A DNA stretch of 64,000 nucleotides, from positions 1,510,918 through 1,574,917 of the forward strand of contig NZ_FXXA01000002.1 in NCBI RefSeq assembly GCF_900184265.1, read 5' to 3'. Below are positions 1 to 41,595 of the stretch, one piece after another. Positions within the stretch are counted from its first letter, which is position 1. Every line of letters starts with the position of its first letter. Both the position numbers and the translations under genes were made by a program. This DNA comes from Eggerthella timonensis. Lineage in GTDB: Bacteria; Actinomycetota; Coriobacteriia; Coriobacteriales; Eggerthellaceae. The notes under the pieces were generated by a model, which was given only the letters and a program-made list of their open reading frames with translations, searched no databases and was not told where the DNA came from.

Positions 1-151
1 GGCAACCCTCGCTGGCGGCATAGATCGCGCGCCGATCCGGAATCGCTCAATGCCGAACGCCAGAATTCGAGAGCGGATATGTGCGAGATGACCGTTTTCA
101 TGGCGAGAGTGTAACATGGAATAACGCCAGGTAAAGAGACGATTTTCGCGC

Positions 152-254
152 GTTGGATCCACGTGGAATTCGCGCTGGATCGGCGTTGGGATCGTGCTAG
201 AACGACGTTGGAGCCATGCTGGGACGGCGTTGGAAGCACGCTGGAATCGCGTGG
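152..254. repeat. Degenerate 11/22-bp tandem array, copy 1
   Basis: Units resembling GTTGGATCCAC, GTGGAATTCGC and GCTGGATCGGC follow one another at exact 11-bp spacing (152, 163, 174). Three 22-bp units starting GTTGG follow at 185, 207 and 229. The consensus is roughly GYTGGAANCGC. The 18-mer GCGCTGGATCGGCGTTGG at 172-189 recurs exactly on the opposite strand at 32999-33016, inside a second array of the same period. Function is unknown. Confidence 0.75.
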
Positions 255-32067: not shown

Positions 32068-32541
32068 CTAGGCTTCGAGGGCGGGGGACTCTTCCTCTAC
32101 GGTGGCGGACTTGCGTTTCGGGCGGCCGGCGGAGGGCCGCTCCCTCAAGCGGGCCTCCACGCTGTAACGGGTCACCCAGGTGTTGTGCCCGTACTTGAAC
32201 GCCTCGAGGAGCCCGTCGCGGATCATGTGGCTCACGCGCGACGGGGACACTCCCAGCGCCCGCGCCGCCTCGGCGGCCGTCATGCGCGGGATGGTGTGCA
32301 GGCCGGCGTCGACGGCGACCCACATGATTCTGCCTCCGTGACGCGGCTCGTTGTCGAACGTGGGCTCGGGAAGGGGGGTGCCCTCCATGGCCCTGAATTC
32401 GATTTCCAGCTTGAGCCAATCGGCTGCGTATTCGGCAACTTCTCGCATGTCGTGGCCTTCTGTGCCGCCTTCGAAATCGAAAGGAGATGCGAGAAGGCGC
32501 TGCTCGCTTTCGTACACTTCGAATTCGTATACGTGAACCAT
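32068..32541 (-). CDS. hicB: HicB-type antitoxin with C-terminal HTH
   Basis: 157 residues. The N-terminal part (about 1-80; YEFEVYESEQRLLASPFDF, IMWVAVDAG) fits a partially degenerate HicB RNase-H-like fold. The second half has a helix-turn-helix (about 88-130; MTAAEAARALGVSPSRVSHMI) of the kind that lets HicB repress its own operon. A basic-acidic tail ends the protein. It starts 20 bp after hicA, the usual toxin-first order. Neutralises HicA by blocking its active site, on family grounds. Confidence 0.8.
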   Translation of the reverse strand: MVHVYEFEVYESEQRLLASPFDFEGGTEGHDMREVAEYAADWLKLEIEFRAMEGTPLPEPTFDNEPRHGGRIMWVAVDAGLHTIPRMTAAEAARALGVSPSRVSHMIRDGLLEAFKYGHNTWVTRYSVEARLRERPSAGRPKRKSATVEEESPALEA

Positions 32542-32850: not shown

Positions 32851-32962
32851 GGCGGCGCGGCGGGCGATGCCGGGCCATGGCCGTTCCCTGTTCGCCGATG
32901 GCGGCATCGCCGTTGTGCCGTACCTCTATGATAACGAGCTGGTCTTACGTTTCGATGGCGTG

Positions 32963-33105
32963 CGTCCAGCGCGCCGTGCCTTCGAATCTTGCGCGGTTCC
33001 AACGCCGATCCAGCGCGGTTTCCACGATTCGTGCCACTGTTTCCAGCGCGCTTTCGATGCGCCTTGCACGCGCTTCCAACGTGCGTGCGGCGTCCGTTCG
33101 GCACG
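32963..33105. repeat. Degenerate 11-bp tandem array, copy 2 (opposite orientation)
   Basis: From 32996 eight successive 11-mers run without a gap: GTTCCAACGCC, GATCCAGCGCG, GTTTCCACGAT, TCGTGCCACTG, TTTCCAGCGCG, CTTTCGATGCG, CCTTGCACGCG, CTTCCAACGTG. Looser units extend to both sides. On the minus strand the consensus is GYTGGAANCGC, the same as the array at 152-254, with which it shares an exact 18-mer. Confidence 0.75.
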
Positions 33106-40687: not shown

Positions 40688-41595
40688 CGGTAGCGCTCCC
40701 GCATCTGTTCGGCACGCCCCTTCGCCAGCGGGATGGACGTGTGCGCGGCGTCGCCCAGCGTGAGGTTGAAGCTGTTGCGCGTGTAGCGCTCCACCTTCGC
40801 CACTTTCTGCACGTTCACGAGGAACGATCGATGGCAGCGGAAGAACCCGGCGCGCGACAGCTCGTGCTCCAGCTCGTCCATCGTGCGCGGCGTTTGGTAG
40901 CGCTCGCCGCGCACGACGAGGTACGTGGCCTTGTTCATGCTCTCGGCGAAGTCGATGTCGCGCGGGTCGAACAGCAGCGTGGCTGTCTCGGTGTGCGCGG
41001 GGATCTTGAGCACGTGCACCTCGTCGCCCTCGTACGCGGCGCCCCCGTCCTCGTCTTCGCCGTCGTCCTGGTCCACCGCGATGAAGCGACCCTCTTCGTG
41101 CCAGCAGGCCACGCCGGGCATGAGCAACGCCTCGCGCAGCGGCTCGACCGTCGTGATGAAGCGGCAGCCCTGCTCCATCCGATCGGCGATCCAGGCGAGC
41201 GCGACGGCGCGCCCCTCGGCGTCGAGGTCGGACAGCGGGCGTTCGAGGAAGCATATCTCCGGCTCGAAGAGGCTCGCGCGCGCCAGGTTCACGAGTGCGA
41301 GTGTCGAGGGGGCGAGGCCGCCGATCTTGCGCTTCGCGACGCCGCGCAGGTTGAAGTGCGAGATGGCGTCCTCGTGATGCACCGAGCTGCGCGCGATGCT
41401 GCCGTAGAAGCGCAGGTGCGAGGACACGGAGTCGCGCTCGAAGCCGCGGTCGGTTTCCAGGACGAACGCACATCGCTGCGTGCGGTAGCGGGCGCGCACG
41501 GCCGCCAACAGGGCGGCGGACGTCTCGCGGCTGCATTCGATGTGCACGCTGCGGCCGTCGGCCACCAGCTCGTCGATGGAGGCGAATTCAGTCAC
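40681..41595 (-). CDS. LytTR regulator fused to a P-loop-less ABC-ATPase-like domain
   Basis: 304 residues. The first ~185 resemble the second half of an ABC ATPase: KRKIGGLAPSTLALVNLAR stands where the signature motif would be, and ICFLERPLSDLDAEG resembles Walker B plus D-loop. No Walker A is present, and the catalytic Glu region is altered. An acidic linker (DQDDGEDEDGG) precedes a LytTR DNA-binding domain (about 205-304; YLVVRGERYQTPRTMDELE, FFRCHRSFLVNV). It probably regulates the neighbouring transporter and may sense it by docking like an ATPase subunit. It sits between a VOC gene (6 bp) and a permease (overlap). Confidence 0.8.
   Translation of the reverse strand: MTEFASIDELVADGRSVHIECSRETSAALLAAVRARYRTQRCAFVLETDRGFERDSVSSHLRFYGSIARSSVHHEDAISHFNLRGVAKRKIGGLAPSTLALVNLARASLFEPEICFLERPLSDLDAEGRAVALAWIADRMEQGCRFITTVEPLREALLMPGVACWHEEGRFIAVDQDDGEDEDGGAAYEGDEVHVLKIPAHTETATLLFDPRDIDFAESMNKATYLVVRGERYQTPRTMDELEHELSRAGFFRCHRSFLVNVQKVAKVERYTRNSFNLTLGDAAHTSIPLAKGRAEQMRERYRW

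Follow-up and report, generated by a model that had tools for sequence, protein, structure and literature searches.

Several described systems come close to the putative operators reported here. Binding sites of PhoB/OmpR-family regulators usually consist of one or two repeat pairs. For PhoP of Mycobacterium tuberculosis, these are built from 7-bp motifs with a 4-bp spacer (PMC4832192). BldC of Streptomyces is a MerR-like protein that forms cooperative head-to-tail multimers on direct repeats, the number of which varies (PMC5859096). The mycobacterial WYL protein PafBC activates a class of DNA-damage promoters by reprogramming RNA polymerase (PMC11804915). The DNA analysed here, a 64-kb stretch of the Eggerthella timonensis genome (the window), carries two arrays of 11-bp direct repeats. 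Together with similar arrays elsewhere, they point to a conserved promoter system serving genes for competence, DNA repair and toxins in Eggerthella and genera related to it, which is undescribed as far as the literature searched shows.

Two periodic arrays and their relatives

Array 1 consists of nine consecutive 11-bp units (CGTTGGATCCA ... CGCTGGAATCG) on the forward strand at window positions 151-249 (genome C2:1511068-1511174), each scoring above 4 bits in an 11-column matrix. Array 2 comprises nine in-phase 11-mers on the reverse strand (33081-32983), seven of which exceed 4 bits; one of the other two is weak (3.5 bits) and one (GTGGCACGAAT) is off consensus yet in phase. The direct-repeat consensus of both is CGYTGGAWNCG. 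Self-identity at lag 11 amounts to 0.53 in array 1 and 0.45 in array 2, as compared to means of 0.27 and 0.28 after dinucleotide shuffling, with none of 2000 shuffles reaching the observed value in either case, and nowhere else in the window is the lag-11 signal as strong as at these arrays. Summed over five units, the matrix gives 56.8 for array 1 and 50.8 for array 2 against a maximum of 5.7 when the window is reversed or complemented. Since the window arrays and other arrays of the same genome went into the matrix, the shuffles serve as the independent test. Hence the 11-bp periodicity and the opposite orientation described in the earlier note hold, with slightly shifted coordinates, and a lag-11 comparison with shuffled sequence, a kind of test that it proposed, places both arrays far above the shuffles. 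The 18-mer that it reported as shared, GCGCTGGATCGGCGTTGG, is indeed present in array 1 and array 2.

The arrays are members of a larger family. A three-unit pattern allowing at most 3 mismatches occurs at 16 places in the 3.92-Mb genome, against 0 for the backwards control, and with a four-unit profile based on sequence alone (R1), about 20 separate arrays emerge in the same genome (G000). The search of the genome and its relatives suggested in the earlier note therefore returned about 20 more arrays in the genome and others in further genera, rather than none. At E ≤ 1e-5, a profile covering array and core over 109 positions (R2, the core being described below) matches 15 of 249 genomes of the order; these represent 7 of 100 genera, all of one family, and one of the seven (g7) rests on a single R2 match. 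At this threshold no match came from any of the remaining 234 genomes sampled in the order. Relaxing the threshold to E ≤ 1e-3 yields 31 of the family's 119 genomes; the weakest of these have single matches that perhaps arose by chance. Array counts per genome are lower bounds, as few candidates were scored in each. An exact-pattern scan of named genomes found two contigs of Ca. Rubneribacter avistercoris and 12 scattered single matches in unrelated taxa. In agreement with the earlier statement that no named family fits, neither an Rfam match to the arrays nor a named family was found.

Promoter module and positional grammar

Most arrays form one end of a fixed module in which 8-10 units are followed by a spacer and the core GCTGGAT-N4-GCCAT-N21-TAnnnT, the last element being a TATACT-like -10 box. 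Relative to this box, the units extend from about -159 to -60, and a spacer 11-mer comes next at -49. Within the core, a further unit follows at -38, then an inverted one, GCCAT, at -26 and a third, weaker unit at -16. In each of the 50 modules, taken from four genera, GCCAT precedes the -10 box by 26 nt, a figure that is partly built in because distances of 24 to 27 nt were admitted in the search and 26 earned one extra point; the GCCAT-26-TAnnnT spacing is nevertheless directly visible in the aligned module sequences. Upstream positions -175 to -45 were also scored with phase ignored. Counted from the -10 box, 333 of the 339 units then fell into one or other of two neighbouring phases modulo 11, and there are two because the spacer differs by an optional 1 bp. 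A clear -35 box is lacking: the best match to TTGACA has 2-4 of 6 positions in all 50 class I promoters, although this absence is incomplete, since 4-of-6 matches occur in 14 of the 50 as compared to 6.5% at random positions. In five peptide promoters (L109, L110, L111, L156 and L157) a dyad, TTTCCATGG...CCATGGAAA, spans the core and represents extra inverted units.

Array 2 is of the full module type and is predicted to be the promoter of hicAB. On the reverse strand, its nine 11-mers (32983..33081) occupy -148 to -60, that at -104 being the off-consensus one, and are followed by the core unit CGCTGGACGCA at -38 (32961..32971), the inverted GCCAT 26 nt 5' of the -10 box (32955..32959), the core unit CGTAAGACCAG at -16 (32939..32949) and the -10 box TATCAT (32928..32933). 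The first gene 3' of the array encodes the HicA toxin (PF07927, 32562..32738), and a hicB-like antitoxin gene with an HTH_17 domain follows (32068..32541), both on the same strand.

The units follow a positional grammar and are products of neither slippage nor free drift. In G000, units within one array are 59% identical (0.593), much like units at different positions of different arrays (60%, 0.601), whereas units at the same position of different arrays are 69% identical. With the paralogous peptide promoters left out, the 7 remaining promoters of G000 have a same-position identity of 0.697, where 0.608 ± 0.013 is expected, and the 5 of E. lenta one of 0.683, where the expectation is 0.610. 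The expectation was obtained by shuffling units among positions inside their own array, and none of 1000 shuffles reached the observed value in either genome. The contrast is weaker in G006 (0.737 versus 0.717). In the G000 set, a unit of the TGGAAW type invariably fills the slot at -93, and that at -104, typically NNGGCAAGRNR, is never consensus. The drifting sequence perceived in the earlier note is therefore not drifting freely, as position-specific unit types recur in unrelated promoters.

These data also bear on readings in which the arrays have no role in transcription initiation. Tandem repeats created by slippage during replication, or a repeat element dispersed through the genome, in either case functionless, would be in keeping with short tandem repeats in intergenic DNA and with the fact that some arrays are paralogous copies travelling with peptide genes. 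Slippage is contradicted by the identities given above: sharing an array makes two units no more similar than coming from different arrays does, while sharing a position makes them more similar. With the spacing to the -10 box fixed and arrays kept at orthologous genes across genera, this whole class of explanation is extremely improbable. A structured RNA, riboswitch or transcribed repeat, for which only the intergenic location speaks, has a negligible probability: the arrays lie 5' of the -10 box, folding z-scores of -1.24, -0.15 and -1.44 indicate no real excess of structure, and Rfam at the gathering threshold detected only a tRNA in the window.

Genes behind modules and core-less arrays

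Target genes were assigned from Pfam and NCBIfam matches and by inspection of homologous loci. Modules precede recA (L101, L125, L137, L150), rpsF-ssb (L089, L138, L153, with a weaker one at L143), comEA-comEC (L102, L107, L133, L145, L159), comF, where the core is divergent (L098, L120, L136, L155, L163), yraN-comM (L178, L141, L149), cpaB with a TadA-type ATPase in a Tad-pilus operon (L092, L146) and a gene for a Y-family polymerase (L099). Arrays occur at the same orthologous targets in several genera for recA, ssb, comEA, comF, yraN-comM and cpaB, and the DNA-uptake and -processing genes among these (comEA-comEC, comF, yraN-comM and the cpaB/TadA-type operon) carry the common promoter element repeatedly across genera. 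Some targets lie outside the competence genes. Toxin-antitoxin pairs are common among them, including the hicAB, HI1419/HI1420, Gp49/HTH_3 and BrnT types. Thus, the array-linked genes are competence, repair, toxin-antitoxin and nuclease-like genes rather than a strongly transcribed class, and the earlier assignment of each array to a strongly transcribed gene or operon does not stand. Array 2 points away from the forward-strand gene that follows it, and toward hicAB. The sequence strongly supports the view that the array-bearing genes form a regulon.

A family of peptides of about 41 amino acids with one hydrophobic stretch is restricted to array-bearing genera among 30 genomes tested; from their look, our guess is that they may be toxic. 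Thirteen clear copies are present in Eggerthella, 12 of which sit 70-92 bp 3' of a module, and the 13th (L090) adjoins a decayed, fused module remnant. At this locus (G000:C2:825.6-825.8 kb) the core and the peptide start seem to have been deleted, so that the array is fused to a headless small membrane peptide. Three genera encode large exported proteins whose N-terminal regions are related (SISGTCYVECLNPE type), at L128, L154 and L142; two of these genes lie behind a full core module and that of L142 behind a short, weak array alone. The first 130 amino acids of the L128 protein gave no Pfam match. A weaker array with a core promoter is located before a DUF559 nuclease-like gene at L190 (G000:C2:534851), near a ParA-like gene.

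The remaining arrays, including array 1, are without the core module. Many of these adjoin a divergent nuclease-like paralog with an N-terminus like MHTVLAYTSALEFWR (L099, L103, L119, L121), and more distant paralogs, judged by eye, are found at L116, L124, L135, L148 and L151; where tested, the nuclease-like proteins show a weak match to the MTES_1575 nuclease family below the curated cut-off. Core-less arrays also lie at recJ (L121) and at recQ or an ECF sigma factor gene (L097, L117), where the link is positional only. Left of array 1, the 5' end of such a nuclease-like gene occupies window positions 1..101 on the reverse strand (full ORF L093:4063-5019:-, 318 amino acids). Its product gives the same weak MTES_1575 match, and a paralog adjoins the L099 array. 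Candidate -35 (TTTACC, 130..135) and -10 (TACACT, 108..113) boxes of this divergent gene were read from the reverse strand, and the upstream region in L099 is paralogous. For array 1, the strongly transcribed gene meant in the earlier note was probably clpC. That assignment was rejected: the gene starts at 836, 587 bp beyond the array, and has its own CIRCE-like operator. With modest confidence, we consider array 1 better assigned to the nuclease-like gene. The operator, TTGGCACTC-N9-GAGTGCTAA (763-789), lies just 5' of clpC and implies heat-shock control of the HrcA type. Between array 1 and clpC there is also an 18-bp tandem repeat, TCGCCCGGCGCGCAGCGC, of 4.4 copies with 93% matches (477-555).

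Candidate mechanism and relation to known systems

We think it probable, from sequence features, that the arrays are operators for an oligomerizing regulator that would assemble on them to recruit RNA polymerase, thereby activating a competence and DNA-repair regulon. Each of the 11-bp head-to-tail sites would bind one copy of a protein, and contacts between touching neighbours would fix the 11-bp step. Head-to-tail repeats at such a constant step imply that the protomers face the same direction and probably touch. The earlier note offered selection on helical phase as an explanation of the conserved spacing. Conserved spacing with varying sequence, in a register that reaches the -10 box, does fit one protein contact per turn, but a period of 11.0 bp differs from the repeat of relaxed B-DNA, which is about 10.5 bp per turn. 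Over ten 11-bp steps the contact face would consequently rotate by about half a turn, so that spacing set by neighbour contacts explains the 11.0 bp better than selection for a single face. The register fixed to the -10 box and the inverted core unit suggest contact with RNA polymerase, which the assembled regulator would help recruit to a promoter that is weak alone; activation is favoured over repression because the promoters are without a good -35 box. Under an inducing condition, comEA-comEC, comF, yraN-comM, the Tad pilus, recA, rpsF-ssb and the Y-family polymerase would be switched on in concert, along with the toxin-antitoxin pairs and small membrane peptides, and we infer an activator-driven competence response. 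More tentatively, and on balance beyond what we would expect to hold in full, a new master regulator of competence or DNA stress in Eggerthella and sister genera might assemble as a defined complex, some ten protomers in size, on arrays in which the slot at -104, and mostly that at -137, departs from consensus and which are joined in register to the core with its units at -38, -26 (inverted) and -16; it would jointly induce uptake, repair, toxins and nucleases.

Proteins on the core units at -38, -26 and -16 would share their DNA with RNA polymerase, an arrangement that would also suit a repressor or silencer. An oligomerizing protein could coat the array and the overlapping promoter, keeping costly or toxic genes off until it is displaced; a protein bound to units that continue through these positions would block polymerase, many targets are toxins, nucleases and uptake genes, and BldC is a known regulator that oligomerizes on direct repeats (PMC5859096). 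We nonetheless hold silencing to be unlikely, since the fixed -10 spacing and the recurrent, GC-rich and sequence-specific positional grammar look more like a dedicated activator complex, and promoters devoid of a good -35 box would need help.

No regulator gene clearly under array control was found. That a PhoB/OmpR-family response regulator binds the arrays is doubtful, as known sites of this family usually hold one or two repeat pairs, as against 8-10 units and an inverted core unit here. In favour of such a regulator, members of the family sit head to tail on direct repeats with a length of about 11 bp, as with the 7-bp motifs and 4-bp spacer of PhoP (PMC4832192). Two further types of regulator were rejected: LexA was found in 37 of 41 relatives, whether or not they carry arrays, and a LytTR regulator in nearly all relatives, which does not discriminate. 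The window itself encodes a LytTR DNA-binding domain in a 306-amino acid frame (40693-40980, reverse strand). HTH_17 matches occur in nearly all genomes, and G000 has five, the two listed ones lying in frames of 223 and 293 amino acids. No array-tracking HTH_17 or BldC-like family was visible in the profile matches of the relatives, nor was a small BldC-like HTH_17 protein obvious in G000 among the matches listed, the weak ones being listed in part.

An HTH_11-WYL-WCX protein (L199:5474-6382) that would sense single-stranded DNA as PafBC and DriD do was also considered. The strong type of this protein occurs in 12 of 13 array genomes and in none of 17 array-free ones (the 30-genome test), it has a PafC-type HTH match (E 4e-8), and PafBC controls a DNA-damage regulon and is triggered by single-stranded DNA (PMC11804915). 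Across 119 genomes, however, the WYL protein is also present in the genera g59 and g66, where arrays were not detected, and is missing from the array-bearing G026. Its neighbours, GyrI-like, DJ-1-like and acetyltransferase-like by eye, are those of a local regulator, its locus is without an array of its own, and the array genera share ancestry, which makes co-occurrence weak evidence. We regard this candidate as quite improbable. The cluster itself, in which the regulator gene is accompanied by these three kinds of gene (L199-L210), is found in the array genera and at least two more.

A sequence-defined, multi-genus regulon in common gut Actinobacteria would link toxin-antitoxin and nuclease-like genes with the uptake and recombination of DNA, and the module promoters supply DNA bait for finding the regulator. 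The literature searched yielded no account of competence in Coriobacteriia. If the proposed regulon is right, natural transformation under a dedicated switch becomes a candidate property of E. lenta and its relatives, with a bearing on how genes are exchanged in the gut. About ten in-phase operators in register with the -10 box over 150 bp would also be an unusual test case for contact between an oligomerizing regulator and RNA polymerase.

In gene content, the array targets resemble the competence regulons governed by CRP/Sxy in Haemophilus and by ComX in streptococci, with which they share comEA/comEC, comF, comM, pilus genes, ssb and recA; the operator is a different one, and a homologous regulator is not recognized. 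As in the LexA/SOS system, recA, a Y-family polymerase and toxins are among the targets, but the array units are direct repeats and LexA does not track them. Similar to PafBC, the arrays mark a promoter class for DNA-damage genes in Actinobacteria, although the WYL candidate fits poorly given g59, g66 and G026, and we know of no operator array for PafBC. The arrays share with BldC direct repeats that are variable in number and, bar one inverted core unit, in one orientation; unlike the 11-bp, GC-rich TGGA units, BldC repeats are AT-rich and of 9 bp, AATTXXXX(C). With PhoB/OmpR-family sites they have in common the head-to-tail arrangement and an 11-bp period, which 7-bp motifs and 4-bp spacers add up to, but they differ in their 8-10 units, fixed off-consensus slots, inverted core unit and common core promoter.
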